Origin: Paludibacter sp. 47-17
GTDB lineage: Bacteria > Bacteroidota > Bacteroidia > Bacteroidales > Paludibacteraceae
Assembly: GCA_001898935.1 (NCBI GenBank)
Contig: MKVT01000008.1
Span: forward strand, 248,001-312,000
Length of the DNA: 64,000 nt
Reading direction: 5' to 3'
Part shown: positions 34,800 through 56,245 of the stretch, in pieces
Numbering within the stretch: position 1 is the stretch's first letter
Layout of the letters: each line of letters begins with the position of its first letter
The notes under the pieces: generated by a model
Told to the model about the DNA's origin: nothing
The model's input: the letters and a program-made list of their open reading frames with translations, nothing else
The model's database searches: none
Program-made: the position numbers and the translations under genes

Positions 34800-36140
34800 A
34801 TGAAGATAGCTATTGTTGGAACGGGTTATGTAGGATTGGTTTCGGGTGCCTGTTTTGCCGAAATGGGGCTGGAAGTAACCTGTGTCGATATTGACGAAAA
34901 GAAGATTGAAAATCTGAAAAACGGGATTATACCGATTTACGAGCCGGGGCTCGAAGCATTGGTGACGCATAATGTGAATTCCAACCGGCTCAATTTCACG
35001 ACCCGGCTGACGGATGTATTACAGGATGTACAGGTGATATTTTCGGCTGTTGGTACGCCTCCCGACGAAGACGGGAGCGCCGATCTGAAGTATGTGCTCG
35101 ATGTTGCACGTACGGTGGGCCGGCATATTACCGATTATGTGTTGCTGGTTACCAAGAGTACCGTACCGGTAGGTACAGCCCGGCTGGTACAGCAGGCGGT
35201 ACGGGAAGAACTCGACAAACGCGGACTCGATATCGCGTTTGATGTGGCTTCTAATCCCGAGTTCCTGAAAGAAGGCGATGCCATCAAGGATTTCATGAGC
35301 CCCGACAGGGTGGTGGTGGGAGTTGAAAGCGAACGGGCCCGTGAGTTGATGACCCGTTTGTACCGTCCGTTTTTGCTGAATAATTTCAGGGTTATTTTTA
35401 TGGACATTCCATCGGCGGAATTGACTAAATATGCAGCTAATGCCATGTTGGCCACGCGTATCAGCTTCATGAACGATATTGCCAATTTATGCGAACTGTT
35501 GGGAGCCGATGTAAGTATGGTCCGGCAGGGTATCGGAACCGATGCACGAATCGGAAGCAAATTTTTATATCCGGGTTGTGGTTACGGCGGTTCTTGTTTT
35601 CCAAAGGATGTGAAGGCTCTTTTGCATACGGGGCGCCAGTATGGCTACGAATTGCGTGTGTTGAATGCGGTGGAAGAAGTGAATGAAATGCAGAAGCACA
35701 TTCTTTACAGGAAGTTGTTGAAGTATTACTCGGAACCCGAGTTGGCCGATAAAGTATTTGCTGTCTGGGGTTTATCGTTCAAGCCCAATACCGACGATAT
35801 GCGTGAAGCGCCTTCGCTGGTGCTGATCCGGCAATTGCTGGAGGCGGGAGCGTGGATCCGGGTTTTTGATCCGATTGCGATGACTGAAGCCCGGCACGCC
35901 ATCCAAAGGCAATTTCCGCACTTGCCTTCCGACCGTATTTACTATGCTACCGACATTTACGACACTGTACTCGACACCGAAGCTCTTTTTATGGTGACCG
36001 AGTGGAAAGAGTTCAGGTTACCCAGCTGGAAGGTTATACGCCGGAGCATGAAAAATCCGCTCATTATCGACGGCCGCAATATATACGAACGGAAAGAGCT
36101 GGAAGAACAGGGACTTCAGTACGAGACCATCGGTTCGTAG
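34800..36140 (+). CDS. ugd: UDP-glucose 6-dehydrogenase
   Basis: Ugd oxidises UDP-glucose to UDP-glucuronate with two NAD+. The 446-residue protein has the Rossmann motif VGTGYVGLVSGACFAEMG at the N-terminus, the catalytic Cys C266 in GCGYGGSCFPKD, and the segments STVPVGTA and NPEFLKEGDAI typical of the family. Its product is a precursor for uronic acids in surface polysaccharides, so the polymer may contain glucuronic acid or a derivative; a closely related UDP-ManNAc dehydrogenase is less likely from the motifs. It is the last gene of the first part of the locus and converges on the NUDIX gene with one base between stop codons. Confidence 0.93.
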   Translation: MKIAIVGTGYVGLVSGACFAEMGLEVTCVDIDEKKIENLKNGIIPIYEPGLEALVTHNVNSNRLNFTTRLTDVLQDVQVIFSAVGTPPDEDGSADLKYVLDVARTVGRHITDYVLLVTKSTVPVGTARLVQQAVREELDKRGLDIAFDVASNPEFLKEGDAIKDFMSPDRVVVGVESERARELMTRLYRPFLLNNFRVIFMDIPSAELTKYAANAMLATRISFMNDIANLCELLGADVSMVRQGIGTDARIGSKFLYPGCGYGGSCFPKDVKALLHTGRQYGYELRVLNAVEEVNEMQKHILYRKLLKYYSEPELADKVFAVWGLSFKPNTDDMREAPSLVLIRQLLEAGAWIRVFDPIAMTEARHAIQRQFPHLPSDRIYYATDIYDTVLDTEALFMVTEWKEFRLPSWKVIRRSMKNPLIIDGRNIYERKELEEQGLQYETIGS

Positions 36141-39210: not shown

Positions 39211-40308
39211 ATGGCATCAACAACACAACACAGTAATTTTAAAGAGCTTACATTAACCGATTTGCGTGCAATGCTAAAAGTATGGTGGAAAGCTATGCTC
39301 GGAAAGTGGTTGATTATTGTGCTGGTCGGCCTCACCGGCGGAGCAATTGGTCTGGGAGCATCTTTTATTATAAAACCCAAATACACAGCCCATCTGTCAT
39401 TTGCATTAATTGAAAAGGGAGGGGGCGGCGGAGGCCTGGCATCGCTTGCCTCCAGTTTTGGTCTTGGTGGTTTGTTTGGGGGCGGTGGCAGTGCTTTCAG
39501 TGGCGATAATCTGCTTCAAATCCTTCAGTCAAGGTATGCTGTCGAAAGCACCTTGCTTAGTCCCATCGACTTTAATGGGCAAAAGATGACCATGATGGAT
39601 GCCTATGCACAATTTATGGAAATGGATAAGGGATGGAGAAAGAGTAAAGACCCTCAGCTTGCGTCGATGTCGTTTCCCATTGGTCAGCCACGAGAAACGT
39701 TTTCACGCGCTCAGGATAGTGTGCTGTATGAAGTTTATTATCAGTTTGTAAGTTCACGTTTACTCAAAGTAACTCGCCGTGATAAAAAAATCAGTATTGT
39801 AACCGTTGATTTTAAAAGTAAAAACGAACAATTCTCGAAAGTGTTTGTCGAAGAGCTAATGAACAGAACTTATGAGTTTTACAAGAATACGCGTACCTCT
39901 CAGAGTCGCGTCAATATTGATGTAATGCAGCAAACGGCCGATTCGATACGCAATCTTTATGAAACTGCCATGTCGAGAAGTGCCGGTATATCGCAGGTGA
40001 ATGTCAACAAGGCTTTTTCAATGGCAGCAGTACCGCGTATGAAATACGAAAATGATGCGCAAATGTACGGAGCTGTATACGGAGAAGTATTGAAAAACTT
40101 AGAAACACTAAAACTCGATCTGGCCCGTGAAACACCTTTGGTTCAAATTATTGATACGCCACGTTATCCGCTGAAAAAGGATAAATTGGGTAAAATTAAA
40201 GGCATTGCGCTTGGAGGATTTATAGCAGGCATTCTCATTGTGTTTATCCTCACGCTCAACTTCTACCTGTCCGGTAAATTTACGAATTCATACCCGTTAC
40301 AGGAGTAA
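39211..40308 (+). CDS. Wzz-type chain-length determinant without kinase domain
   Basis: A 365-residue inner-membrane polysaccharide co-polymerase. Two membrane helices flank a periplasmic region: MLGKWLIIVLVGLTGGAIGL near residue 32 and IALGGFIAGILIVFILTLNF near the C-terminus. The region after the first helix contains a glycine-rich stretch of about 30 residues (GGGGGGLASLASSFGLGG and onward). No Walker motifs follow the second helix, in contrast to the Wzc-type protein 4.4 kb upstream. It is 9 bases after the SLBB export gene and 3 bases before the flippase gene, so it probably regulates chain length for this second operon. Confidence 0.87.
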   Translation: MASTTQHSNFKELTLTDLRAMLKVWWKAMLGKWLIIVLVGLTGGAIGLGASFIIKPKYTAHLSFALIEKGGGGGGLASLASSFGLGGLFGGGGSAFSGDNLLQILQSRYAVESTLLSPIDFNGQKMTMMDAYAQFMEMDKGWRKSKDPQLASMSFPIGQPRETFSRAQDSVLYEVYYQFVSSRLLKVTRRDKKISIVTVDFKSKNEQFSKVFVEELMNRTYEFYKNTRTSQSRVNIDVMQQTADSIRNLYETAMSRSAGISQVNVNKAFSMAAVPRMKYENDAQMYGAVYGEVLKNLETLKLDLARETPLVQIIDTPRYPLKKDKLGKIKGIALGGFIAGILIVFILTLNFYLSGKFTNSYPLQE

Positions 40309-40311
40309 GGC

Positions 40312-41748
40312 ATGCAGGGCACTAAAGGGAAATCGGTACGTGGAATCATCTGGAGCGCCATCGACCGGATAGCTGCGCAAGCCATTCAGTTTATGATCTC
40401 CGTTTTGTTGGCACGACTTCTTTTGCCCGAAGATTTTGCAGCCGTAGCCATTGTATTGGTTTTTATCAACATTCTCCAGACGATTAATGAGTCGGGATTC
40501 GGAGTTGCTTTGGTACAAAATCAGCAGCGCGATGAGACCGATTTTTCGACGGTGTATTATTTCAATATCGCGTTGGGATTTGTATTGTATGGATTGTTGT
40601 TCTTTACTGCTCCTCTCATTTCGCGTTTTTTTGAACAAGATTTAACTTTACTGCTCCGGTTGCTGGGAATAAACCTTATTGCAAGTTCATTCGTGGTTGT
40701 TCACCGGGCCATTCTGCTCATCAAAATTGATTTTAAAACACAGGCAAAGGCTACCACTCTTGGAGTGCTTGTGTCGGGCATTGCCGGACTCACGGCTGCC
40801 TGGTCGGGGTATGGTGTATATTCATTAGCAGTACAATCTGTACTCAACACGGTGATTAGTTCGTGTTTGTTGTGGTATTTTACCCGCTGGACACCAAAGG
40901 CTTCGTTTTCGGCCGGCCGTTTTAAAAAGATTGTTGATTTTGCATGGAAATTGGTGATGGCGAGATTAATTAACGATATATTTCAAAACTTGTATACAGT
41001 GGTGATTGGCAAGTTTTTCCCACTCAAACAGGTTGGTTATTACAACCGTGCGGTCAGCTTTCAATATCTTTCCACCAATCTCATCACTCAAATCATTCAA
41101 CGGGTTTCCATGCCCGTTTTGTGTGAACAACAGCACGATGATGTGAAGATGCGGCAAACACATCTCAACTTTATGATGGTGGCGGCTCTGCCTGTTTTTC
41201 CTTTGCTTTTCGGTTTGTTTGTGCTTGCCGAGCCGCTGGTTGTGTTTTTACTTACCGCCAAATGGCTGCCGGTGGCATATATGTTGCAAATTCTTTGTCC
41301 CGTTGGTTTGTTGTTCGTCATCAATACGTTCAATCTGAATATTTTCAATGCAACCGGTCGTACCGATCTGGCGTTGAAAGTCGAACTGTATAAGAAAGTA
41401 ATCATGGTATTACTCATTGTAGTTTCGTTAGGTATCGGATTTGAAGCGCTTTTGTACAGCCAGATTGTAGTTGCTGTCATCGAGTTGTTGGTGAACACAT
41501 GGTACACCCGTAAACTGATCGGTTTGTCGTTAACCGAACAGTTGAGGTATCTCTGGCCGGTAGTGTTGAGTTCAGCGATTATGGCTTTGCTGGTTTGGTT
41601 TGCAGTACAATTCAACGTAAGCCCGCCCGTACAACTCGTCACGGGTGGCATGGTGGGAATTATAAGTTACCTGGGTATGCTCTACCTTACAAATACCGGT
41701 CCTATTAGAAGGTACATACAAGAGGTGGTGAAGAGAATAAAGAAGTGA
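40312..41748 (+). CDS. Lipid-linked oligosaccharide flippase (Wzx / MOP superfamily)
   Basis: A 478-residue membrane protein with about 12-14 helices, starting KSVRGIIWSAIDRIAAQAIQ and containing RLLLPEDFAAVAIVLVFINI and NESGFGVALVQ, phrases typical of WzxC-like polysaccharide flippases of the MOP superfamily. It should move undecaprenyl-diphosphate-linked repeat units from the cytoplasmic to the periplasmic face. A partner polymerase is encoded immediately downstream, so the locus uses a Wzx/Wzy-type pathway. It lies 3 bases after the chain-length gene. Confidence 0.9.
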   Translation: MQGTKGKSVRGIIWSAIDRIAAQAIQFMISVLLARLLLPEDFAAVAIVLVFINILQTINESGFGVALVQNQQRDETDFSTVYYFNIALGFVLYGLLFFTAPLISRFFEQDLTLLLRLLGINLIASSFVVVHRAILLIKIDFKTQAKATTLGVLVSGIAGLTAAWSGYGVYSLAVQSVLNTVISSCLLWYFTRWTPKASFSAGRFKKIVDFAWKLVMARLINDIFQNLYTVVIGKFFPLKQVGYYNRAVSFQYLSTNLITQIIQRVSMPVLCEQQHDDVKMRQTHLNFMMVAALPVFPLLFGLFVLAEPLVVFLLTAKWLPVAYMLQILCPVGLLFVINTFNLNIFNATGRTDLALKVELYKKVIMVLLIVVSLGIGFEALLYSQIVVAVIELLVNTWYTRKLIGLSLTEQLRYLWPVVLSSAIMALLVWFAVQFNVSPPVQLVTGGMVGIISYLGMLYLTNTGPIRRYIQEVVKRIKK

Positions 41749-41753
41749 AAGTT

Positions 41754-43184
41754 ATGGGATTATTAATTCTTTACAGTCTGCTTTTTATTTATCTGATGGT
41801 GAGCTATTTCACGGTCGATTTTGCCGTTGCCGGAGTATTTCCTACGGCAGTGCTGTGCAGTGTCATATTTTTGGGGGCCGCCTATTTGTTTTTAAGAAAT
41901 CGTCGTCGGCATTATTTTTTATCGTTTGAATTGTTTTTTTTCTTTGTTTTTTTTCTGGTTACTTATACTTTTCCGTTGATGGCGTTCAACGAAGACGATT
42001 TGCTGTTGTTGGTCGATATAAGCCCCTATCTGGTAAATAAAGCTGTTTATTTATCAACATTAGGTTTCATGTCGTATTTGCTGGGAGCTACCCTTCTGTC
42101 GAAGCCTCATCAGGAGGAACGGGACGAATGGAAGTTTAATTTTGAAAAATATGATTTGCCGAAGGCAGCCTATTTATTTAACCGTATTACCAGCGTTTTT
42201 GTACTCCTTTTTTTTCTGGTTGACGGCGCCACTTTGGTAATGCGTTACAGCAACGAAACAACTGAAGTTACAGGTGGATATATACTGCCCTATGTTCGGG
42301 TGCTGTTTATAATATCAACCGTGCTCGAATTTTCACGCTTGTCGTGGTCGCAAGTCGCTACCTTACGGGATACCTTGCAATCGGTAAGTTTATTCTATCT
42401 TTTCAATATTGTATCGTTGCTTCCTTTTTTTCTGGTTATTGGCTATCGAAGCGAATTTCTGGTGTTGGCATTAACTGTATTTGTCGTGTATGCGATGTTT
42501 ATAAAACCAATCAACAAAGGCTTGATTCTGATACTGGTAGTAGCTGGCTTTTGGGTAATGGCGCTGCTTAAATTCTTCAGAGGGTTCAACGATGTGGATG
42601 TAAATGAGTTGCAGGGAGAGGGAGCATTTACGATGATCGGGATTTTCAGTGAGTTTTACATCCCGTCCAGTACATTATACGAGTTTGTTTTTTACGTTGA
42701 TGCGAATGGTCCGACCTACGGTACCAATACACTATTACATGTTCTGGCTTTTGTTCCGTTTTTGCAGTCGTTGGTAGTAAAACTATTCGGGATCGATGTT
42801 TCTGCTCCGGCTTATCAAACATCTTCCGACTTTATTTCCAATTATATTTTAGGAGAAGACCGTTCGTGGGGGTTAGGTACTCATGTGATAGGCGATTTGT
42901 ATTATACGTTTGGATTTTCGGGTGTGGTGATCGCAATGTTTGTCATGGGGATTATTGTATCCTACCTTACCGAGCGGATTATATACCGAAAACAGTTCAA
43001 TTTAGTATCGGTGCTGTTTTTTATTGTACTTACCTCGCAGAGTTTTTTCTTCAGCAGAGTCGAGTTTTTTCGTCCCGTACGGGATTTAGGATTAATATTC
43101 TTTATTATGTTAATTGCACGATTTGCAATGCATCTGCGCAAGGCGCCGGTAGTTGAGCAGGCTGAACAAAAGGAGGAAGGATGA
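41754..43184 (+). CDS. Polysaccharide repeat-unit polymerase (Wzy-like)
   Basis: A hydrophobic protein of about 476 residues with 11-12 predicted helices and a large periplasmic loop near the end of the first two thirds, the usual topology of Wzy polymerases and O-antigen ligases. There is little fixed motif in this family; the segment LPFFLVIGYRSEFLVLALTV with its Arg is similar to the conserved region of oligosaccharide repeat-unit polymerases. I prefer ATG 41754; the in-frame GTG 41745 would overlap the flippase stop. The DNA is visibly richer in A+T than the neighbouring housekeeping genes, common for polymerase genes. Assignment rests on topology and position between the flippase and the glycosyltransferases. 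Confidence 0.75.
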   Translation: MGLLILYSLLFIYLMVSYFTVDFAVAGVFPTAVLCSVIFLGAAYLFLRNRRRHYFLSFELFFFFVFFLVTYTFPLMAFNEDDLLLLVDISPYLVNKAVYLSTLGFMSYLLGATLLSKPHQEERDEWKFNFEKYDLPKAAYLFNRITSVFVLLFFLVDGATLVMRYSNETTEVTGGYILPYVRVLFIISTVLEFSRLSWSQVATLRDTLQSVSLFYLFNIVSLLPFFLVIGYRSEFLVLALTVFVVYAMFIKPINKGLILILVVAGFWVMALLKFFRGFNDVDVNELQGEGAFTMIGIFSEFYIPSSTLYEFVFYVDANGPTYGTNTLLHVLAFVPFLQSLVVKLFGIDVSAPAYQTSSDFISNYILGEDRSWGLGTHVIGDLYYTFGFSGVVIAMFVMGIIVSYLTERIIYRKQFNLVSVLFFIVLTSQSFFFSRVEFFRPVRDLGLIFFIMLIARFAMHLRKAPVVEQAEQKEEG

Positions 43185-46743: not shown

Positions 46744-47889
46744 ATGGAGAAAAAGAATTATCAGGTTTGCACTCGCTGTGTAATGGATACTACCGATCCT
46801 GCTATCCGGTTTGATGAAAATGGTGTTTGTGATCATTGCCATGATTTTGATAACAATGTAAAACCCAACTGGCATACCGACGAGCGTGGAGAGCAGCAGC
46901 TGACTAAACTGGTAACTAAAATAAAGGCTTCTGGAAAGGGCAAAGAGTTCGATTGTCTGCTCGGGTTGAGCGGAGGTGTCGACAGTTCGTATATGCTGCA
47001 TCTTGCTGTAACGAAATTTGGATTGCGTCCCCTGGTTTTTCATGTCGACGGTGGGTGGAATTCGGAATTGGCGGTACATAATATCAACGTTATGGTTGAT
47101 AAGCTGGGGCTCGATCTGTACACAGAAGTAATCAACTGGGAAGAAATGAAAGATTTCCAGTTATCGTGGTTTAAGGCTGGCGTTCCGCACCTCGATATTC
47201 CGCAGGATCATGCATTTTTTGCCACCATGTATTATTTTGCCGAGCGTCATAAAATCAAATATATTCTGAATGGGGGGAATTTCTCTACCGAATGTGTACA
47301 ATATCCGATGGAATGGTTTTACTATGCCACCGATATTACGCATATCGACGATATACGAAGTAAGTTTGGTACCATCCCGATGCCCACCTATCCATTCAGT
47401 TCGGTATTCCGGCACAAAATTTACCTGAAATACCTCAAAGGGGTAAATGTTGTGAAACCATTGAATTACATGCCTTTCTATAAAGATGAAGCAATCGGTA
47501 CTCTGGAAAAGGAGTACGGGTGGAAATCGTATCCCCAGAAACACTTTGAATCGCGTTTTACGAAATTCTACGAAGGTTATTGGTTGCCCGAGCGTTTCGG
47601 GTATGATACCCGCAGGGTACAGTTTTCAAGTCTTATTTTAACCGGACAGTTGAGCCGGGACGAGGCGTTGGAGCGATTATCGCGGCCTGCTTATGATCCG
47701 GAAACAATTGATGAAGAATTTGTATATATTGCCACGAAGCTGGGAATCACTCCCGACGAGTTGCGGGGGTATATGAATATTCCTAAGAAATATTACTGGG
47801 ATTATAAGAATCAGCAGAATGTTTTCCGCCTGGGAGCACAGGTGATGAATTGGTTGGGCATGGAAAAGGTTGTTAAACGAAAACAATGA
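46744..47889 (+). CDS. N-acetyl sugar amidotransferase (WbpG / WbuX type)
   Basis: A 381-residue PP-loop ATP pyrophosphatase. C9/C12 (CTRC) and C29/C32 (CDHC) form a likely zinc site; the PP-loop is LLGLSGGVDSSYM (about residues 72-84). P. aeruginosa WbpG with HisH2/HisF2 converts an N-acetyl group on a nucleotide sugar into an acetamidino group; the same trio here follows in the order WbpG, HisH, HisF. I chose ATG 46744 (MEKKNYQVCTRC) because upstream codons have no homology. It overlaps the HisH gene by 4 bases. Given fnlABC downstream, the likely substrate is UDP-N-acetyl-L-fucosamine or the corresponding lipid-linked sugar; this is inference. Confidence 0.9.
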   Translation: MEKKNYQVCTRCVMDTTDPAIRFDENGVCDHCHDFDNNVKPNWHTDERGEQQLTKLVTKIKASGKGKEFDCLLGLSGGVDSSYMLHLAVTKFGLRPLVFHVDGGWNSELAVHNINVMVDKLGLDLYTEVINWEEMKDFQLSWFKAGVPHLDIPQDHAFFATMYYFAERHKIKYILNGGNFSTECVQYPMEWFYYATDITHIDDIRSKFGTIPMPTYPFSSVFRHKIYLKYLKGVNVVKPLNYMPFYKDEAIGTLEKEYGWKSYPQKHFESRFTKFYEGYWLPERFGYDTRRVQFSSLILTGQLSRDEALERLSRPAYDPETIDEEFVYIATKLGITPDELRGYMNIPKKYYWDYKNQQNVFRLGAQVMNWLGMEKVVKRKQ

Positions 47890-48500
47890 TTACTATTATC
47901 GACTATGGACTGGGTAATATCCGGGCCTTTCAACGGGTTTTCGAACATTTAAAAGTGGAGGTCAGCATTGCTACGTGTGCCGATGATCTGGTTAGCGCCA
48001 CGAAGCTGATACTGCCTGGAGTCGGTGCTTTTGATTATGCCATGACTTGTCTCAACCACTCGGGGATGCGTGAGTTACTGGAAAAAAAAGTACTGAGTGA
48101 AAAGATCCCTGTTTTAGGAGTGTGTGTGGGTATGCAGATGCTTGCGTCGAAGAGTGATGAAGGTGTTCTGCCAGGTTTAGGCTGGATCGAAGGGAGCGTA
48201 AAGCGTTTTAATCCGGAAACGATCCCTTTTAAGACTCGTTTTCCTCACATGGGATGGAATTCGGTTATCCCTGTGAATCACTCACCGCTTATGAATGGAA
48301 TCCAATCCGATTCGCGTTTTTATTTTCTTCATTCCTATTATTTCGAAGCTGTACATCCCGGACACACCATTGCCACTACGATCTACGGAGCCAAATTTTG
48401 CAGTGCTGTTCAGCGGGAGAATATTTTTGGCGTTCAGTTTCATCCCGAGAAAAGTCACTCTAATGGAGTGAAACTGCTTCATAATTTTGCAAACTTATAA
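47886..48500 (+). CDS. HisH-type glutamine amidotransferase subunit of the amidino-sugar system
   Basis: A 204-residue class I glutamine amidotransferase. The nucleophile is C80 in GVCVGMQML, and H186/E188 in FHPEKSH complete the triad. It should release ammonia from glutamine and channel it to the HisF-like partner, 3 bases downstream. In histidine synthesis the same pair makes imidazole glycerol phosphate, but no other his gene is here. Its place between a WbpG-type protein and fnlA points to amidine formation on a sugar. The ATGA overlap suggests coupled translation with the preceding gene. Confidence 0.88.
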   Translation: MITIIDYGLGNIRAFQRVFEHLKVEVSIATCADDLVSATKLILPGVGAFDYAMTCLNHSGMRELLEKKVLSEKIPVLGVCVGMQMLASKSDEGVLPGLGWIEGSVKRFNPETIPFKTRFPHMGWNSVIPVNHSPLMNGIQSDSRFYFLHSYYFEAVHPGHTIATTIYGAKFCSAVQRENIFGVQFHPEKSHSNGVKLLHNFANL

Positions 48501-48503
48501 GTT

Positions 48504-49283
48504 ATGTTATATCCTCGCATAATCCCCTGTTTGCTCATCCACAACAAGGGTTTGATTAAAACGGTCCGGTTCAAGGATCCCAAATATGTTGGGGATCCCA
48601 TCAATGCCGTGAAAATTTTCAATGAAAAAGAGGTCGACGAGCTCATTGTGCTGGATATTGATGCTTCAGTGGAACAACGGGAGCCCGACTATAAGCTGAT
48701 TGAACATCTAGCTGCTGAATGCAGGATGCCGCTTTGTTATGGAGGTGGAATAAAAACGGTTGAGCAGGCGCAACGCATTTTCAATCTGGGTATCGAAAAA
48801 ATTGCTGTAAGCTCATTGGCTGTTGAACAACCCGGGATTGTTGCCGAAATAGCCCGGCGGGTTGGCAACCAGAGTGTAGTAGTGGTGATGGACGTCAAAA
48901 AAACAGGTTTACGGAATCGTTATGAACTTTTCACCCACAATGCCAACAAGGGCAGGGGATTAGATCCGGTTAAATTTGCGGTTCAGATGCAAGACTTAGG
49001 TATCGGTGAACTGGTCATAAATTCGGTCGATCAGGATGGAATGATGACTGGTTACGATCACAAGTTGATTGATGCTGTAAAAGAAGTGATTACCATACCG
49101 GTAACCGTGATGGGCGGTGCGGGTAGCTTACAGGATATGGGCGAAGTAATCCGAAAACATTCTATCATAGGGGTTGCGGCCGGCAGTTTGTTTGTGTTTA
49201 AAGGAAAATACAAGGCTGTTCTTATCAGTTATCCCACACCAGAGGTCAAAGAGGCTGTTTTTAAAGAATATTTTCATCCGTAG
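48504..49283 (+). CDS. HisF-type cyclase paralogue of the amidino-sugar system
   Basis: A 259-residue (beta/alpha)8 barrel. The N-terminus MLYPRIIPCLLIHNKG aligns without gaps to HisF MLAKRIIACLDVKDG, so catalytic Asp11 of histidine synthesis is Leu11 here, while Asp130 is kept (VVVMDVKKTG). Loss of Asp11 argues against imidazole glycerol phosphate synthesis and fits the HisF2/WbuZ paralogues that only pass ammonia to the WbpG partner. The phosphate-binding ends (GGGIKTVEQA, GGAGSLQDMGEV, VAAGSLFVFKGKY) are present. It is followed by a 63-base gap with a small dyad and then fnlA. Confidence 0.88.
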   Translation: MLYPRIIPCLLIHNKGLIKTVRFKDPKYVGDPINAVKIFNEKEVDELIVLDIDASVEQREPDYKLIEHLAAECRMPLCYGGGIKTVEQAQRIFNLGIEKIAVSSLAVEQPGIVAEIARRVGNQSVVVVMDVKKTGLRNRYELFTHNANKGRGLDPVKFAVQMQDLGIGELVINSVDQDGMMTGYDHKLIDAVKEVITIPVTVMGGAGSLQDMGEVIRKHSIIGVAAGSLFVFKGKYKAVLISYPTPEVKEAVFKEYFHP

Positions 49284-49346
49284 GTCGATTGGGTGAAATA
49301 AATACTCCCTAACTAGCGTTAGTACTAATATTACGAAAATAATATC

Positions 49347-50360
49347 ATGTTTAAAGATAAAATATTATTGATCACCGGAGGTACGGGTTCGTTTGGAAAT
49401 GCCGTGCTGAACCGGTTCTTACACACCGATGTTGCTGAGATCCGGATTTTTTCGCGCGATGAAAAAAAACAGGACGACATGCGGCATCAGTATGCCAATC
49501 CTAAAATTAAATTCTACATTGGCGATGTTCGCGATAAACGTAGTGTCGACAATGCCATGTACGGCGTCGATTATCTGTTTCATGCGGCTGCATTGAAGCA
49601 GGTTCCTTCCTGTGAGTTTTTTCCGATTGAGGCTGTGAATACGAATGTGATCGGGACTCAACATGTGCTCGATTCGGCTGTGGAACACGGGGTGAAGAAC
49701 GTGATCGTTTTGAGTACCGATAAGGCGGCTTATCCCATTAATGCGATGGGAATCAGTAAAGCGATGATGGAAAAGGTCGCGTTTGCGAAGGCTCGGTCCG
49801 TGGGTGAACATGCTCGTACCACCATTTGCTGTACGCGCTACGGTAATGTGATGGCCAGCCGCGGATCGGTGATTCCTTTGTGGATCGAGCAGATAAGGTC
49901 GGGCAAGGAAATTACGATCACCGACCCTTCGATGTCGCGGTTCATGATGACCCTCGACGATGCGGTCGATCTGGTGCTTTATGCTTTCGAGCACGGACGG
50001 AGCGGCGACCTGTTTGTCCAAAAAGCACCTGCAGCCACCTTAACTGTATTGGCCCAGGCGCTCAAAGAGCTTTTCGGAGCCGATACTAATGTGCGCTCCA
50101 TCGGTACCCGCCATGGTGAAAAATTGTACGAAACGCTTGTAACCCGCGAGGAAATGTCGAAAGCACAGGATATGGGCAATTATTACCGGATTCCGCTCGA
50201 TAACCGGGATTTAAACTACGATAAATATTTTGTCGAGGGAGAAGAGGAAATCTCGCAGATCGACGATTATCATTCGCACAACACTACCTTGCTCGATGTG
50301 GAAGAAATGAAACAATTGTTGTTGAAATTGGAGTTGGTGAGAAAGGAAACAGGCCTATGA
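49347..50360 (+). CDS. fnlA: UDP-GlcNAc 4,6-dehydratase (5-inverting) FnlA/CapE/WbjB
   Basis: A 337-residue extended short-chain dehydrogenase. The first enzyme of UDP-N-acetyl-L-fucosamine synthesis, it converts UDP-GlcNAc to a 4-keto-6-deoxy-L-arabino sugar by dehydration and 5-epimerisation. The NAD(P) motif is LITGGTGSFGNAV. The active site reads STDKAAYPINAMGISK: K126, with Met134 where most SDR enzymes have Tyr, and K138, the pattern reported for CapE. The C-terminus has GTRHGEKLYETLVTREE. It overlaps fnlB by ATGA. The three-gene order fnlA-fnlB-fnlC is that of E. coli, S. aureus capEFG and P. aeruginosa wbjBCD. Confidence 0.93.
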   Translation: MFKDKILLITGGTGSFGNAVLNRFLHTDVAEIRIFSRDEKKQDDMRHQYANPKIKFYIGDVRDKRSVDNAMYGVDYLFHAAALKQVPSCEFFPIEAVNTNVIGTQHVLDSAVEHGVKNVIVLSTDKAAYPINAMGISKAMMEKVAFAKARSVGEHARTTICCTRYGNVMASRGSVIPLWIEQIRSGKEITITDPSMSRFMMTLDDAVDLVLYAFEHGRSGDLFVQKAPAATLTVLAQALKELFGADTNVRSIGTRHGEKLYETLVTREEMSKAQDMGNYYRIPLDNRDLNYDKYFVEGEEEISQIDDYHSHNTTLLDVEEMKQLLLKLELVRKETGL

Positions 50361-51475
50361 AGTTATTAATTACCGGTGCTTTTGGTTTTGTGGGCCGTAA
50401 CCTGACGGCCGAATTGCGTAACAGAGGTTTTAAGGAGGTTTTTCTTTACGATGTGGATACTGATCCGGCTTTGCTCGACGATTATACAAGTCGTTGCGAT
50501 TTTGTATTTCACCTGGCGGGAGTGAACCGTCCCCAGGACCCTAAGGAGTTTATGGAAGGTAATTTTGGATTCACGTCCGTCTTGCTCGATTCGCTCCGCC
50601 GCCATAATAATACAGCCCCTGTACTCATTACTTCATCGACTCAGGCTGCTCTCGATAATCCCTACGGACAAAGCAAACGAGCGGGGGAAGACTTGTTGCG
50701 TGCCTATTCCGCCGAGACGGGTGCCCGGGTGTTCATCTTCAGGCTTCCCAATGTGTTTGGAAAGTGGTGCCGTCCGAATTACAACAGCGCGGTAGCCACT
50801 TTTTGTCATAATATAGCTCATGGCTTGCCGATTCAGGTTAATGACCCGTCGGTGGTGATGAATCTGGTGTATATCGATGATGTGGTGAACGCTTTTATTC
50901 AACGGTTAACGGAAAAGGAGGAACGTTGGGTGGTTGGCAGCGGATTTGAAGAGGTAAACCCGGTGCATACCATTTCGTTGGGCGGAATTGTGGAGCTGCT
51001 GTATTCGTTTAAAGAAAGCAGAACCAGTTTGCAAGTCCCCGATTTGTCCGATGGTTTTACCAAAAAGCTTTATTCCACGTATTTAAGTTATCTTCCTGTT
51101 GATTCATTCGGATATCCCCTCAAAATGAATACCGATGAACGGGGCTCGTTTACCGAATTTCTGAAATCGAATGACAGAGGCCAGGTATCGGTCAATATCT
51201 CCAGGCCGGGCATCACAAAGGGCAATCACTGGCACCATACGAAGAATGAGAAGTTTCTGGTGGTGAGCGGTAGAGGCGTGATTCGTTTCCGTAAGATTGA
51301 TTCCGGCGAAATACACGAATATTTTGTATCGGGCGACAAGCTGGAAGTAGTGGATATTCCGGTGGGCTATACCCACAACATCGAAAACCTGGGCGAAAGT
51401 GATATGGTAACCGTGATGTGGGTGAATGAAATTTTTGATCCTGAGCATCCCGATACGTATTTTCTGAAGGTGTAA
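50357..51475 (+). CDS. fnlB: Bifunctional 3-epimerase/4-reductase FnlB/CapF/WbjC
   Basis: A 372-residue two-domain enzyme. Residues 1 to about 245 form an SDR reductase: LLITGAFGFVGRNL and the Y103-x3-K107 pair in NPYGQSKRAGED. Residues about 250-372 form a cupin with metal ligands in GNHWHHTKNEKFLVV and VDIPVGYTHNIENLG. CapF uses the cupin for C3 epimerisation and the SDR domain for NADPH reduction at C4, giving UDP-N-acetyl-L-talosamine-type product for FnlC. It is coupled to fnlA by a 4-base overlap and followed by fnlC after 14 bases. Confidence 0.93.
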   Translation: MKLLITGAFGFVGRNLTAELRNRGFKEVFLYDVDTDPALLDDYTSRCDFVFHLAGVNRPQDPKEFMEGNFGFTSVLLDSLRRHNNTAPVLITSSTQAALDNPYGQSKRAGEDLLRAYSAETGARVFIFRLPNVFGKWCRPNYNSAVATFCHNIAHGLPIQVNDPSVVMNLVYIDDVVNAFIQRLTEKEERWVVGSGFEEVNPVHTISLGGIVELLYSFKESRTSLQVPDLSDGFTKKLYSTYLSYLPVDSFGYPLKMNTDERGSFTEFLKSNDRGQVSVNISRPGITKGNHWHHTKNEKFLVVSGRGVIRFRKIDSGEIHEYFVSGDKLEVVDIPVGYTHNIENLGESDMVTVMWVNEIFDPEHPDTYFLKV

Positions 51476-51489
51476 AATAAACGAATAAG

Positions 51490-52680
51490 ATGAAGAAATT
51501 AAAAGTGATGACTGTTGTAGGCACCCGTCCGGAAATTATCCGTCTTTCGTGTGTTCTGCAGAAGCTTGATTCCAGTGCTGCTATCGATCATATCCTTGTT
51601 CACACGGGCCAGAATTACGATTACGAGCTCAACGAGGTATTTTTCGAGGATTTGGGTCTTCGCAAGCCCGATTATTTTCTGAATGCAGCGGGTGCTACAG
51701 CCACAGCTACCGCAGGCACGATTCTGATTGCCATCGATCCGGTGCTCGAAGAAGTGCGTCCCGATGCTTTTCTGGTACTGGGCGACACCAATTCCTGCCT
51801 GTGCGCCATTGCTGCCAAAAAGCGCCATATCCCGATATTCCACATGGAAGCGGGCAACCGCTGTTTCGACCAGCGTGTTCCGGAGGAGTCGAACCGTAAA
51901 ATCGTGGACCATATTTCGGATATCAATCTTACCTACAGCGATATCGCCCGGGAGTACCTGCTGGCCGAAGGGCTTCGTCCCGACCGGATTATCAAAACGG
52001 GTAGCCCGATGTACGAAGTGCTAAGTAATTACGGGCCCAGGATCGCCGCTTCCTGTATTTTGGACACACTGGGTCTTTCCCGGGATGGTTATTTTGTAGT
52101 TTCGGCCCATCGGGAGGAAAACATTGCTTCGGAGAAGAACTTTTTCAACCTGATCGCCATTCTGAACCAGGTTGCGGAGCATTACGGATTGCCGGTTATT
52201 GTTTCCACCCACCCCCGTACGCGCAAGATGATGGAGCGCAAGGGGATCATCCCGGCTCCGGACGCACTGCCCGGACGCACCCCGGGCGGGTCTTCGGCGA
52301 CTCCGTCGCTTCATCCGCTGGTGAAACTTATGAAGCCGATGGGTCTCAGCGATTACATCGCCCTTCAGGTGAAGGCCAGGGCTGTTTTGTCGGACAGCGG
52401 CACCATCAGCGAAGAATCGTCGATTCTAAATTTCCGTGCCTTGAATATCCGTGAAGCCCACGAGCGTCCCGAAGCGATGGAGGAAGCTTCGGTAATGATG
52501 GTCGGTCTTCATCCCGAGCGGGTGATGCAGGGGTTGGTTGAGCTGGAACGGCAGCAAACCGGTGCCGAACGCAACTTCCGCCCTGTGTCGGACTATAGCA
52601 TGCCCAACGTGAGCGATAAAGTGGTACGCATCATACTATCGTATACCGATTATATCAAACGAGTGGTGTGGAATGAGTAA
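51490..52680 (+). CDS. fnlC: UDP-N-acetyl-L-fucosamine synthase / 2-epimerase FnlC/CapG/WbjD
   Basis: A 396-residue non-hydrolysing UDP-HexNAc 2-epimerase. Motifs: VVGTRPEIIRLSCVLQ at the N-terminus, MEAGNRCFDQRVPEESNRK at about residue 119, THPRT in the second domain, and SDSGTISEESSILNFRA for UDP binding. It is the third enzyme giving UDP-L-FucNAc. An oddity is a Pro/Gly/Ser-rich stretch around residues 255-279 (APDALPGRTPGGSSATPSL), encoded by unusually G+C-rich DNA at about 52252-52316; the E. coli and S. aureus enzymes, as I recall them, are shorter here. Its end overlaps the next gene by 8 bases. Confidence 0.92.
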   Translation: MKKLKVMTVVGTRPEIIRLSCVLQKLDSSAAIDHILVHTGQNYDYELNEVFFEDLGLRKPDYFLNAAGATATATAGTILIAIDPVLEEVRPDAFLVLGDTNSCLCAIAAKKRHIPIFHMEAGNRCFDQRVPEESNRKIVDHISDINLTYSDIAREYLLAEGLRPDRIIKTGSPMYEVLSNYGPRIAASCILDTLGLSRDGYFVVSAHREENIASEKNFFNLIAILNQVAEHYGLPVIVSTHPRTRKMMERKGIIPAPDALPGRTPGGSSATPSLHPLVKLMKPMGLSDYIALQVKARAVLSDSGTISEESSILNFRALNIREAHERPEAMEEASVMMVGLHPERVMQGLVELERQQTGAERNFRPVSDYSMPNVSDKVVRIILSYTDYIKRVVWNE

Positions 52681-53914
52681 GATACTGATACATACTATAG
52701 TTTTCAGTCCCGATGGTGTGTCGACAGCTTATATCTACAACGATATTGCACTCCGTTTGCAGCAGGGTGGGCACGAGGTTGTGGTTCTTACCACTACTCC
52801 GCATTTCAATGCTTTGCCCGAGAATCTGCAACGACAGCCCTTGAAATCGAGATGGGGCGGCCTATGGTACGAAAGCAGGTATCACGGTATCCGGGTGATT
52901 CATATTCCCCAGAAAAAGTTTAAAAGTACGCTGTTGCGTATGGTTGGTTTTATGTACTGGCACCTGGTGTCGTTCATATCCGGCCTTTTTATACATCCCC
53001 TCGATTTAATATTATCGCCTTCCCCTCCTTTAACACTGGGAGTGGTGAATATCCTGCTCGGCAAACTCAAAGCCGCCAAAGTGGTCTATAATGTTCAGGA
53101 AATTTATCCCGACTTGCTGATTGCCGATGGCGGTTTGAAAGCTCCGCTCATTATCAATGTGTTGAAGAGAATGGAGCGCTTTGTTTATCGCTATTCCGAT
53201 GCGGTAACCACCATCGACGAGGTTTTTTATACAACCATAGCCGGCCGTTTCCGCGATCCCAATCGGTTGACCATCATTCCCAATTTTGTCGATACCCGCT
53301 TGTACACGGCCGACACGGCCGATCAGCTGGATCCGGCAATTTTCGAGCCGACCGGCGAACTGAAAGTAATGTATGCCGGTAATATCGGCAATGCACAGGA
53401 CTGGGATACTTTTATCGCATTAGCAGCAGAGCTCAAAGGCCAGCCGATTCGCTTCTTCGTGATTGGCGAAGGGGTGGACAGGGATGATCTGGAAAAGGAA
53501 ATAGAGCGCTTGCAACTAGCCAACGTGAAGCTGATCCCTTACCAGCCACGTGAAAAAATGCCCTCACTGATTGCCTATGCCGATTTGCATTTTATTTTTA
53601 TGGCCGCTCAGGTCGAAGGTCACGGATTTCCTTCGAAGGTGTATACGCTGATGGCCTGTTCGAAACCGATGCTGGTATGTTCGGGCAAAAATACTCCGAT
53701 TGTCAATTTCTTACAGGATAAGGATTGTGCATGGATTGTATCGGAACATGAATCGATAAAAAAGGTGCAACAACTCCGGGAAATATTGTTGACCATGGAT
53801 AGAGCCCAGCTGGTCGATAAGGGAAAACACGGGCGCAGGGTGGTAGAACAAAGTTACACCCGGGAGATTATAACCGAAAAATACCTGAATCTGGTGAATC
53901 AACTTACCAAATGA
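52673..53914 (+). CDS. Glycosyltransferase, WbuB-like (GT4)
   Basis: A 413-residue GT-B enzyme. The N-terminal half reads HTIVFSPDGVSTAYIYNDIA, LILSPSPPLTLGVVNILLGK and YNVQEIYPDLLIADGG, features of the WbuB group that in E. coli follows fnlABC and transfers L-FucNAc or L-FucNAm. The C-terminal half has MYAGNIGNAQDWDTF and GHGFPSKVYTLMACSKPML, matching the donor-binding region. The 8-base overlap with fnlC and the synteny make it the best candidate for the L-FucNAc/FucNAm transferase. Donor identity is inference. Confidence 0.82.
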   Translation: MSKILIHTIVFSPDGVSTAYIYNDIALRLQQGGHEVVVLTTTPHFNALPENLQRQPLKSRWGGLWYESRYHGIRVIHIPQKKFKSTLLRMVGFMYWHLVSFISGLFIHPLDLILSPSPPLTLGVVNILLGKLKAAKVVYNVQEIYPDLLIADGGLKAPLIINVLKRMERFVYRYSDAVTTIDEVFYTTIAGRFRDPNRLTIIPNFVDTRLYTADTADQLDPAIFEPTGELKVMYAGNIGNAQDWDTFIALAAELKGQPIRFFVIGEGVDRDDLEKEIERLQLANVKLIPYQPREKMPSLIAYADLHFIFMAAQVEGHGFPSKVYTLMACSKPMLVCSGKNTPIVNFLQDKDCAWIVSEHESIKKVQQLREILLTMDRAQLVDKGKHGRRVVEQSYTREIITEKYLNLVNQLTK

Positions 53915-53927
53915 AGCAGTAAAAAGC

Positions 53928-54890
53928 ATGAATACTCCATTGAACCATAAGTCGATATTGATTACAGGAATTCAGGGTTTCGTAGGACGTAATCTGGTGG
54001 AAAGCCTGAGGTCCGATTACCGGATTTATGGCCTGGATATCCGCCGGGATGCAATCGAAGGGGTGGTGGCAATTTTTCTGTGGGACGAATTGGATCAACT
54101 CCCCGAAGTATACGCCGTCATCCACCTTGCCGGTATAGCCCACGATTTAAAACAAAAGTCGAAATGGGATCTTTATTTTAAGGTGAATACCGGTTTGACC
54201 CGCATTATTTATGATTGGTACCGGGAACACAATGTAGCCAGATTCATCTTTTTCAGTTCGGTGAAAGCTGCTGCCGATAATGCCGGCGATCATGAGCTCG
54301 TCGAGTCGGTGGTGCCCCGCCCCATAGGACCGTATGGAGAGAGCAAACTGGCTGCCGAAGAATACATTTTATCCAATCCGGTTACTGAGGCGCAGGCGCC
54401 GGTGAAAAAATATTATATCCTTCGCCCCGCAATGATCCATGGTCCCGGCAACAAAGGGAACCTGAATTTGTTATATAAGTTGGTTAAGACAGGAATTCCC
54501 TGGCCTTTAGGACTGTTTCATAACCAACGTTCTTTTTGTTCGATCGACAACGTTGTGTTTTTATTGCGTCAGCTGCTGAATGGAGCTGTCGAGTCGGGTG
54601 TGTATCATTTAGCCGACGACGAACGCTTGTCGACCAACGAGCTGGTGGTGCTTATCGCCAGAGCTTTGGGACGGCGTTCGAATGTTTGGTCGGTACCGGT
54701 TGCGCTGGTGAATGCGGTGGCTCGTGCGGGTACTTTCTTACATCTTCCATTCAACGACGAGCGCTTAAAAAAACTGACGGAGAATTATATGGTTTCCAAT
54801 GTGAAAGTAAAGACTGCATTAAAGGTTGACAAATTGCCAGTTACCGCTCAGGACGGGATCTTTAAAACAATTAAAAGTTTTACGAAATGA
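53928..54890 (+). CDS. NAD-dependent sugar epimerase/reductase (WbpV-like)
   Basis: A 320-residue extended SDR. Cofactor loop: GIQGFVG (G14, G17, G20); catalytic pair Y136 and K140 in GPYGESK; also FFSSVKAAADNAG. It is similar in form to WbpV and to WecA-partnered 4-reductases that reduce UDP-4-keto-6-deoxy-GlcNAc to UDP-QuiNAc or UDP-D-FucNAc; a UDP-GlcNAc 4-epimerase is the alternative. It overlaps the initiating-transferase gene by 4 bases (ATGA), as wbpV precedes wbpL in P. aeruginosa. This suggests it makes the first sugar of the repeat. Confidence 0.8.
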   Translation: MNTPLNHKSILITGIQGFVGRNLVESLRSDYRIYGLDIRRDAIEGVVAIFLWDELDQLPEVYAVIHLAGIAHDLKQKSKWDLYFKVNTGLTRIIYDWYREHNVARFIFFSSVKAAADNAGDHELVESVVPRPIGPYGESKLAAEEYILSNPVTEAQAPVKKYYILRPAMIHGPGNKGNLNLLYKLVKTGIPWPLGLFHNQRSFCSIDNVVFLLRQLLNGAVESGVYHLADDERLSTNELVVLIARALGRRSNVWSVPVALVNAVARAGTFLHLPFNDERLKKLTENYMVSNVKVKTALKVDKLPVTAQDGIFKTIKSFTK

Positions 54891-55843
54891 TTCATGTTTT
54901 ACTTTTTGTTATCGTATTTGTTTTAGAAGTTCTATATTTTAAACTTGCAAGGCGTTTTAATATAATTGACAAGCCCAATGCAAGGAGCTCGCACCATAAA
55001 CCAACATTATTGGGTGGAGGGATTATTTTCGTAGTTGCATTACTCTTATATTCGTTGTTTTTCGGTTTCAATTATCCCTGGTTACTGCCGGGCGCATTTT
55101 TACTGGCCACAGTAAGTTATATCGACGATTTAAAACCGCAGTCGCCCAAATTAAGGCTGCTTGTTCAGTTGGGTTCTCTCTTGCTGATGTTTGCCGAATT
55201 AGGCATGTATTCCTATCCGCTACATTGGATCGTAATAGCGCTTACGGTTGCAACCGGTGTATTGAATGCCTATAATTTCATGGACGGAATCAATGGAATG
55301 TTGGGCATGACCAGCCTGGTGGTATTGGGAGGCCTTATTTACATTAACGCGAACGTGGTTGTCTTTACCGATGCCAATCTGCTCTACCTGTTACTGATGT
55401 CGGTGGTGGTGTTCAACTTTTTCAACTTCAGAACCAAAGCCAAGTGTTTTGCCGGCGATGTAGGTGCTTTTACGATGGGTTTCATGTTGGTGTATTTCAT
55501 TATGAAATTGATTCTCATAACCGGTAATTTTGCATGGATTGCCATGCTTGCGATGTACGGAGTCGATACGATATTAACCATTATTCATCGAATATTCCTG
55601 GGTGAGAATCTTACTCAGCCGCATCGTAAACACCTGTTTCAATTGCTTGCCAATGAACTGCAGTTTTCGCATTTGCTTATTTCTGTCGTTTATGCCCTTC
55701 TTCAGCTTCTGGTGATCGCGGGACTTATTATAGCGCAGTCGCATGCCTATATGGTGGCAATGCTGTCGATCTTGTTGATTGCGGCATGTTATATTGTGAT
55801 CAAACAGAGGTATTATTACTTGCACGAACAAAAAACCGTATAA
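54887..55843 (+). CDS. Initiating sugar-phosphate transferase to undecaprenyl phosphate (WbpL/WecA/MraY family)
   Basis: A 318-residue membrane protein with 10-11 helices. Conserved cytoplasmic motifs of the polyprenyl-phosphate N-acetylhexosamine-1-phosphate transferase family are present: ARSSHHKPTLLGGGI, VSYIDDLKPQSPK with the Asp pair, NFMDGINGM, NFRTKAKCFAGDVGAF and RIFLGENLTQPHRKHLFQ with the His-rich loop. It should start repeat-unit assembly by moving a HexNAc-1-phosphate to the lipid carrier recycled by UppP. By its partner, the sugar is probably QuiNAc or D-FucNAc; GlcNAc is possible. It is followed by WbuC after 3 bases. Confidence 0.9.
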   Translation: MIHVLLFVIVFVLEVLYFKLARRFNIIDKPNARSSHHKPTLLGGGIIFVVALLLYSLFFGFNYPWLLPGAFLLATVSYIDDLKPQSPKLRLLVQLGSLLLMFAELGMYSYPLHWIVIALTVATGVLNAYNFMDGINGMLGMTSLVVLGGLIYINANVVVFTDANLLYLLLMSVVVFNFFNFRTKAKCFAGDVGAFTMGFMLVYFIMKLILITGNFAWIAMLAMYGVDTILTIIHRIFLGENLTQPHRKHLFQLLANELQFSHLLISVVYALLQLLVIAGLIIAQSHAYMVAMLSILLIAACYIVIKQRYYYLHEQKTV

Positions 55844-55846
55844 ATT

Positions 55847-56245
55847 ATGATCCTGCTTGACGATGAATTATTAAACGAACTTACCGCACAGGCGTCGGTA
55901 AATCAACGTCTCCGAATCAATTACAATCTGCACGATTCGCTCGAAGCCCCTGTACAGCGTTTACTGAATGCGATGGAACCCGGAACCGTATTGCCGGTGC
56001 ACCGGCATATCGATACCGCTGAAACTTACCTGATACTGAGGGGCAGACTTAAAGTCCTCATGTACTCGGATTCAGGAGTGTTAACCTCTGTGCATGAGCT
56101 GAATCCGCTTCAGGGCGTTTACGGTATTAACGTTCCTGCCGGACAATGGCATACCGTAGAGGTATTGGAAAAGGGGACGGTCATTTTTGAGGTAAAAGAA
56201 GGTCCTTACCGCCCCCTCTCCGAAGAGCATATACTTACAGTCTAG
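55847..56245 (+). CDS. wbuC: WbuC family cupin-fold metalloprotein
   Basis: A 132-residue single-domain cupin. Metal ligands are visible in PVHRHIDTAETYLILRG (two His, Glu) and in NVPAGQWHTVEVLE (His). This is the WbuC family, found in O-antigen and capsule loci near fnlABC and wbuB; its reaction is not established. Presence at the end of this locus strengthens the link to E. coli FucNAc/FucNAm-type clusters. It is the last plus-strand gene of the locus, and its stop codon shares the palindrome CTAG with the opposing protease gene. Confidence 0.88.
   Translation: MILLDDELLNELTAQASVNQRLRINYNLHDSLEAPVQRLLNAMEPGTVLPVHRHIDTAETYLILRGRLKVLMYSDSGVLTSVHELNPLQGVYGINVPAGQWHTVEVLEKGTVIFEVKEGPYRPLSEEHILTV

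Follow-up and report, generated by a model that had tools for sequence, protein, structure and literature searches.

In the O-antigen clusters of Escherichia coli O145 and O118/O151, six genes run in one direction in the order wbuX-hisH-hisF2-fnlA-fnlB-fnlC and are followed by a glycosyltransferase gene and wbuC. Passages of PMC10607449 credit the O145 WbuX protein with acting on N-acetyl-L-fucosamine (L-FucNAc) for the synthesis of its acetamidino form, L-FucNAm, and PMC6124807 gives the UDP-L-FucNAm route of Aeromonas hydrophila as fnlABC/wbuX. Within Bacteroidota, the O-polysaccharide of Flavobacterium columnare ATCC 43622 is described in an excerpt of the review PMC3210612 as containing L-FucNAm, N-acetyl-D-glucosaminuronic acid (D-GlcNAcA) and D-Sug, on the basis of nuclear magnetic resonance (NMR) and mass spectrometry. 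Here we analysed a 64-kb window of the Paludibacter sp. 47-17 genome (the window being the whole stretch of DNA under analysis) and found six intact plus-strand open reading frames (ORFs) at 46744-52680 that have the same identity, order and direction as the E. coli genes, with whose set the first-pass annotation of this DNA had already compared them. Comparison of sequences makes it likely that L-FucNAm is the product of this cassette and enters a surface polymer of the Wzx/Wzy type.

Results

The first gene of the cassette, wbuX (46744..47889, + strand), encodes a 381-aa N-acetyl sugar amidotransferase (NASAT) that matched TIGR03573 with 323 bits against a cut-off of 203. It is followed by hisH (wbuY-type; 47886..48500, +), encoding a glutaminase subunit of 204 aa (TIGR01855, 228 bits, cut-off 105), and by hisF2 (wbuZ/aglZ-type; 48504..49283, +), encoding a barrel protein of 259 aa (NF038364 AglZ/HisF2 model, 378 bits, cut-off 310). 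The next three genes encode a UDP-GlcNAc 4,6-dehydratase/5-epimerase of 337 aa (fnlA, also capE/wbjB; 49347..50360, +), a reductase of 372 aa (fnlB, capF/wbjC; 50357..51475, +) and a 2-epimerase of 396 aa giving UDP-L-FucNAc (fnlC, capG/wbjD; 51490..52680, +). Family models and matches to solved structures thus bear out the names that the first-pass annotation had given to the six genes. Its description of 4- to 8-base overlaps at most junctions did not stand, as only two of the five junctions inside the sextet overlap, or three of six when that between fnlC and the following glycosyltransferase gene is included. In order, the junctions are a 4-bp overlap, a 3-bp gap, a 63-bp gap, a 4-bp overlap and a 14-bp gap, and the last gene overlaps its downstream neighbour by 8 bp. 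The widest gap of the sextet, the 63 bp that separate hisF2 from fnlA (49284-49346), holds a small palindrome, ctaactagcgttag.

We examined the three proteins of the amidotransferase module for diagnostic residues. WbuX carries a tetracysteine (Cys9/12/29/32) and the PP-loop SGGVDS at residues 76-81, and so fits the motifs of the NASAT family, which are given in passages of PMC10607449 as a tetracysteine plus a PP-loop of the form SGGXDS. Among structures in the PDB its match was weak and confined to the N terminus (8wex, 35 bits); a pair of hits to designed dTor repeat proteins was put down to chance. HisH contains the sequences GVCVGMQ and HPEKS, presumably the catalytic glutaminase motifs. 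The cassette HisF scored 195.5 bits against the histidine hisF model TIGR00735, under the cut-off of 294.55, and NF038364 was its best model. A second HisF is encoded elsewhere in the same genome (C13:281773; L218), and an alignment of the two revealed that this second protein keeps Asp11, the Asp after IPCL, which we take to be the cyclase Asp of histidine synthesis, and that the cassette protein has Leu at this position. The same Leu was present in HisF2 of E. coli O145 and O118, in the other ten HisF2 proteins aligned from fnl contexts and in three aligned from loci with a bidomain oxidoreductase. Three HisF proteins aligned from NeuB contexts had Thr in two cases and Asp in one (L038), indicating that the loss of Asp11 is not universal in the wider family. 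We infer that the role of the HisH/HisF2 pair would be to provide ammonia and not to form imidazole glycerol phosphate.

The three Fnl enzymes were placed by their nearest solved structures. FnlA matched 4j2o with 512 bits and CapE (3vvb) with 478 bits; the UDP-GlcNAc C6 dehydratase 2gn4 reached only 220 bits, and an assignment to the PseB type was rejected on this ground. FnlB consists of a short-chain dehydrogenase/reductase (SDR) domain (PF01370) and a C-terminal cupin domain (PF14667), and it matched CapF (Cap5F, 2zkl) over its full length, residues 1-372 to 1-369, with 473 bits. FnlC matched 4hwg with 403 bits and CapG (7ya2) with 382 bits, compared with about 200 bits for UDP-GlcNAc3NAcA 2-epimerase chains and 96 bits for 1f6d, which we take to be E. 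coli WecB.

The order of the six genes was then followed across Bacteroidota in an even sampling of the phylum (395 genomes), in a sample of the order (247 genomes), both including the genome under study, and in 80 named loci that had been brought in by a search with the WbuX of the window. Neighbouring genes were named by bit thresholds that we set ourselves, the sextet count was repeated by script, and short contigs could hide further sextets. WbuX over its cut-off was found in 54 of the 395 genomes of the phylum sample and in 27 of the 247 of the order sample, own genome included. The complete sextet occurred in 11 of the 394 other genomes of the phylum sample and in one of the other 246 of the order sample (G486). 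Thirteen of the named loci also had it, in addition to L093, where the contig is cut inside fnlC, and L137, where the genes are permuted; one stretch (L100 among the named loci, L034 in the phylum sample) was counted in both. A counterpart within the same genus was L093 (genome G667), from the metagenome-assembled genome (MAG) of Paludibacter sp. isolate STD2_23. It matches the window in the order wzx-wzy-three glycosyltransferases-wbuX-hisH-hisF-fnlA-fnlB-fnlC, with 49-85% identity across the ten full-length genes.

Phylogeny of the amidotransferase had been suggested as a check on its substrate group, and two WbuX trees were built. A quick tree of 152 rows lacks L169 (WbuX under 300 aa), L124 and L134 (ORF in no cluster) and L035. 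A careful tree of 60 rows comprises 55 of these 152, picked by hand around the window and as outgroups, together with L186, L189, L191, L199 and L233. The label fnl in both trees means FnlA or FnlC within 6.5 kb, with L095 (FnlC-like only) and L165 (FnlB and FnlC only) counted as fnl. In the 60-row tree the window WbuX paired with that of STD2_23 (support 100/98) inside a clade of 15 rows (96/93). Twelve of these rows have fnlA and fnlB adjacent, one of them cut inside fnlC; of the remaining three, one has FnlC-like only (L095), one lies on a contig ending after hisF and one has no fnl gene. No NeuB or bidomain-oxidoreductase gene was found in the fetched stretches of this clade. The quick tree agreed, with a clade of 18 rows of which 15 were fnl under the loose label and three were other. 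The L-FucNAm that had been predicted for the polymer is thus supported, at the level of sequence, by this clade, by the recurrence of the sextet in the phylum sample, by the matching arrangement of the O145 and O118/O151 clusters of E. coli and by the activity credited to O145 WbuX.

Judged by its gene content, the cassette sits inside a Wzx/Wzy-type locus on the plus strand. Upstream are genes for a Wzc-like chain-length tyrosine kinase (32337..34787, +; TIGR01007, 141 bits, cut-off 108), a UDP-glucose 6-dehydrogenase-like enzyme (34800..36140, +; TIGR03026, 444 bits, cut-off 190; TuaD model, 528 bits, under its 700), an SLBB/Wza-type export protein (36802..39201, +; PF02563, PF10531), a weakly Wzz-like chain-length protein (39211..40308, +; PF02706, 20.8 bits, under cut-off), a Wzx-type flippase (40312..41748, +; PF13440, 271 bits), a Wzy-type polymerase (41745..43184, +; PF14296, 45 bits; TIGR04370, 61.5 bits, cut-off 40) and three family 4 glycosyltransferases (GT4; 43181-44353, 44350-45540 and 45548-46717, all +; PF00534/PF13692). 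The dehydrogenase-like enzyme is a possible source of an acidic sugar.

Downstream of fnlC lies a further GT4 gene (52673..53914, +), whose best family match was PRK10307 (WcaI family, 138 bits, under the cut-off of 276) and whose product is 56% identical to the glycosyltransferase in the same place of locus L081. By its position it is predicted to be the L-FucNAc/L-FucNAm transferase. The first-pass annotation had called it WbuB-like. A GT4 gene does stand there, while orthology to the E. coli O145 glycosyltransferase was not borne out, since the two match at 24% identity over 36% of the length; the name describes a role by position. The next gene encodes an SDR (53928..54890, +; PF01370, 82 bits; same place in L081 with 50% identity), which we take to be WbjF/WbpV-like and which is predicted to be a 4-reductase making UDP-N-acetyl-D-quinovosamine (UDP-D-QuiNAc) or UDP-N-acetyl-D-fucosamine (UDP-D-FucNAc). 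It is followed by a gene for a WecA/WbpL-like phosphosugar transferase (54887..55843, +; PF00953, 69 bits, cut-off 27), one of three PF00953 matches in the genome and the predicted initiating enzyme. The cupin gene wbuC, which the earlier reading of the sequence had already placed further downstream, was found at 55847..56245 (+; TIGR04366, 154 bits, cut-off 42). A WbpM-like dehydratase of 647 aa, encoded elsewhere in the genome (C34:210340), could feed a 4-keto sugar to the SDR/WbpL pair. Further on are genes for an M6-family metalloprotease (56242-59118) and for a GT4 (59197-60282) adjoining a vimE gene. Near the window end is a UvrA-like ORF of 769 aa (61589-63898, - strand). Its match begins at position 168-172 of profiles 924-943 positions long, so this frame lacks about 170 residues at the N terminus.

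Several observations weigh against L-FucNAm as the product. FnlA scored 561 bits against TIGR04130, under the curated cut-off of 730, and FnlB scored 451 bits against NF047837, under 500; the best curated family model for FnlC was that of WecB (TIGR00236), barely over its cut-off with 213 bits against 210. We regard these three weaker calls as settled because the nearest solved structures are FnlA/CapE, Cap5F and FnlC/CapG chains. In the tree, E. coli O145 WbuX fell into a different clade from the WbuX of the window. Moreover, the fnl label changed 10 times on the 60-row tree and 11 times on the 152-row tree, which implies that WbuX has been repeatedly recoupled to other partner pathways and that its context cannot be read from its sequence alone. 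In L098, a near relative, wbuX-hisH-hisF stand without any fnl gene across the 15 kb of the locus. Within the genus, contexts differ among the five further WbuX carriers: G667 is like the window, G651 has a bidomain-oxidoreductase context, G660 a NeuB context, and G661 and G639 other contexts. Two genes for 2,3-diamino uronic acids have to be considered as well. The nearest to the cassette encodes VimE, a UDP-GlcNAc3NAcA deacetylase (60272-61582, - strand; NF053580, 603 bits), 7.6 kb from fnlC on the opposite strand. The other lies outside the window (C8:221293-222540; L001:1294-2544) and encodes a WbpI-like 2-epimerase (PF02350) that scored 369 bits with its nearest chain, 8sxv, and so with UDP-GlcNAc3NAcA 2-epimerases, compared with 257 bits for 4neq and 132 bits for 1f6d among UDP-GlcNAc 2-epimerase chains. 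Taken together, VimE and this epimerase indicate that UDP-ManNAc3NAcA, the type of substrate used by Pseudomonas aeruginosa WbpG, may exist in the cell. Finding the epimerase lowered our confidence in L-FucNAm and raised that in a 2,3-diamino uronic acid. Finally, the substrate, the timing of amidination, the linkage and the polymer charge are predictions from the genes.

The leading alternative, which we consider unlikely, is that a 2,3-diamino uronic acid, either ManNAc3NAcA or GlcNAc3NAcA, is the substrate of the amidotransferase, as it is for WbpG of P. aeruginosa O5, an enzyme that makes ManNAc3NAmA according to passages of PMC10607449. VimE implies that UDP-GlcNAc3NAcA is present in the cell, the epimerase is WbpI-like, though it passed the WecB model too (281 bits against 210), and all five same-genus WbuX carriers have both genes. 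Neither gene tracks WbuX, however. Among 35 genomes of the genus, VimE was found in 33 and a WbpI-like gene (at least 480 bits) in 24, and WbuX over its cut-off in five. In Paludibacter sp. 47-17 the WbpI-like gene is 73 kb away from wbuX, next to gltX, glycosyltransferase genes and another gene for a Wzx-type flippase; none of its ten scanned neighbours encodes an amidotransferase, and no gene of the WbpB, WbpE, WbpD or WbpI type was found among those scanned from 32337 to 63898.

Next in standing, and rather improbable, is the possibility that the polymer does hold L-FucNAc and that WbuX-HisH-HisF2 amidinate another of its sugars, for example the D-QuiNAc or D-FucNAc primer. The WbuX family serves different sugars and its partner pathways switch on the tree; enzymes for a second N-acetyl sugar, the SDR and the WbpL-like transferase, are encoded in the locus, and L098 combines wbuX-hisH-hisF with an SDR like that of the window (311 bits). 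Against this, fnlABC directly follow wbuX-hisH-hisF in the window, as they do in E. coli O145 and in 24 of the fetched loci, 23 of them distinct. The SDR/WbpL pair occurs in only three of those 24 (L079-L081), although in several the fetched sequence stops shortly after fnlC.

A nonulosonic acid as substrate (Pse5Am or Leg5Am type) is hardly credible. Such enzymes do occur in Bacteroidota: a deep WbuX branch of the 152-row tree has NeuB within 9 kb in 21 of its 29 rows, and an acetamidino group on pseudaminic acid (Pse) in Tannerella forsythia is described in an excerpt of PMC6120980, which ascribes it to an AsnB-like protein. The reading is contradicted by the absence of any NeuB match in a genome that is 99.98% complete, with the same search positive in nine of 14 control genomes, and the window WbuX lies far from the NeuB branch. 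That hisH and hisF are merely histidine-biosynthesis genes lying here, as the match of HisH to the histidine model TIGR01855 might suggest, was rejected on the basis of the second genomic HisF with its Asp11, the Leu of the cassette protein and its best match to AglZ/HisF2.

The fetched loci revealed further features of wbuX neighbourhoods. A fusion of zinc-dependent alcohol dehydrogenase and GFO/IDH/MocA domains, about 711 aa long (for example L112:6709-8829), was present in 56 of the 140 loci L033-L172, in wbuX loci mostly without fnlABC; a 2-epimerase gene of a type other than fnlC accompanies it in 26 of these 56 loci, and a heparinase II/III-like gene in 17. A true bidomain oxidoreductase of this kind was not found in the genome of Paludibacter sp. 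47-17, where the best match had 51 bits. Among the 24 sextet loci FnlB came in two grades, with 213-273 bits to the window FnlB in 13 (such as L097, L110, L099 and L081) and 345-415 bits in 11; in five loci, L186 included, the lower grade corresponded to 33-38% identity. A further small ORF (cluster 25), with a median length of 141 aa, was present in nine loci, and the one tested had no Pfam match. The sextet was also seen on contigs binned as archaea, in MAGs of Candidatus Nitrosotalea and Candidatus Methanoperedens (L153 and L163), where a binning error is possible. In G505 of the order sample (L199, G505:C1:75000-94900), which has a long branch in the WbuX tree, wbuX is directly followed by fnlA and accompanied by fnlB and fnlC, with no hisH or hisF match within 20 kb at the thresholds used. 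Locus L165, from Bacteroides bouchesdurhonensis, contains a tandem wbuX pair, hisH, hisF, a glycosyltransferase like that of the window (456 bits), a WbpL-like gene, an fnlC-like gene and fnlB, and no fnlA match in its 19 kb at the threshold used.

Discussion

We propose that UDP-GlcNAc would be converted to UDP-L-FucNAc by FnlA (dehydration and epimerization), FnlB (reduction) and FnlC (2-epimerization). HisH would free ammonia from glutamine, and the HisF2 barrel, lacking the cyclase Asp11, would hand it on to WbuX. As an ATP-pyrophosphatase of the PP-loop type, WbuX could then swap the N-acetyl oxygen using this ammonia, giving the acetamidino group, either on UDP-L-FucNAc or on a lipid-linked unit. 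The GT4 encoded after fnlC may place L-FucNAm, or L-FucNAc before its amidination, on a primer of D-QuiNAc or D-FucNAc, which would be made by the SDR from material fed by the WbpM-like dehydratase and be loaded onto lipid by the WbpL-like transferase. If the UDP-glucose dehydrogenase of the locus supplies a uronic acid, positive and negative charges may occur together in the polymer.

More tentatively, and as a single joint proposal that we rate as possible but short of probable, the locus may specify an exopolysaccharide that is zwitterionic, with L-FucNAm on a D-QuiNAc or D-FucNAc primer contributing the positive charge through its acetamidino group, and WbuX-HisH-HisF2 may form a portable module for amidination, joined many times over to different sugar pathways, including that of a sugar made with the bidomain oxidoreductase. 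Zwitterionic capsules known from Bacteroides carry free amines, and the proposal, if true, would add an amidine-based alternative. To our knowledge few surface-glycan structures have been solved in Bacteroidota, and a rare positively charged sugar would here be predictable from six genes. The HisF2 signature, in which Asp11 is lost beside an intact histidine HisF, helps to separate amidination modules from histidine genes. In addition, the amidination unit is found next to two or more other sugar pathways, and this provides a testable set for what fixes substrate choice in the WbuX family. In a Sphingomonas exopolysaccharide cluster, WbuX, HisF2 and HisH stand beside dehydrogenase, aminotransferase and acetyltransferase genes according to an excerpt of PMC11340318.

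Among known systems, the cassette shares its six genes and their order with that of E. coli O145, with identities of 51% for WbuX, 53% for HisH, 62% for HisF, 71% for FnlA, 44% for FnlB and 65% for FnlC. Of 5426 E. coli genomes, 48 contained the O145 six-gene stretch at a coverage of 80% or more. Unlike the E. coli clusters, Paludibacter sp. 47-17 has the SDR and WbpL-like genes between the glycosyltransferase gene and wbuC. The same L-FucNAc enzymes are known as CapE/CapF/CapG in Staphylococcus aureus and as WbjB/C/D in P. aeruginosa, the latter presumably the counterparts of FnlA/B/C, and we know of no amidotransferase module beside either set. Within Bacteroidota, the capsule/O-antigen locus of Capnocytophaga canimorsus 5 resembles the window in having fnlABC beside QuiNAc synthesis genes, together with wbuB, and sections of PMC5156936 report fucosamine and quinovosamine by gas chromatography–mass spectrometry. 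It differs in that the word amidotransferase is absent from the main text of that paper and the sections consulted report no acetamidino sugar. The L-FucNAm of F. columnare belongs to a lipopolysaccharide O-chain of solved structure as described in the consulted part of PMC3210612, unlike the gene-derived polymer of Paludibacter sp. 47-17, and this precedent removes the novelty in Bacteroidota that the first-pass annotation had implied. For Bacteroidales, a limited search of the open-licence literature found no report of L-FucNAm. The cassette is not new, and L-FucNAm is not new to Bacteroidota either; the finding adds to what is known and does not alter it, and the locus of Paludibacter sp. 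47-17 stands as a well-supported further member of the group formed by these systems.

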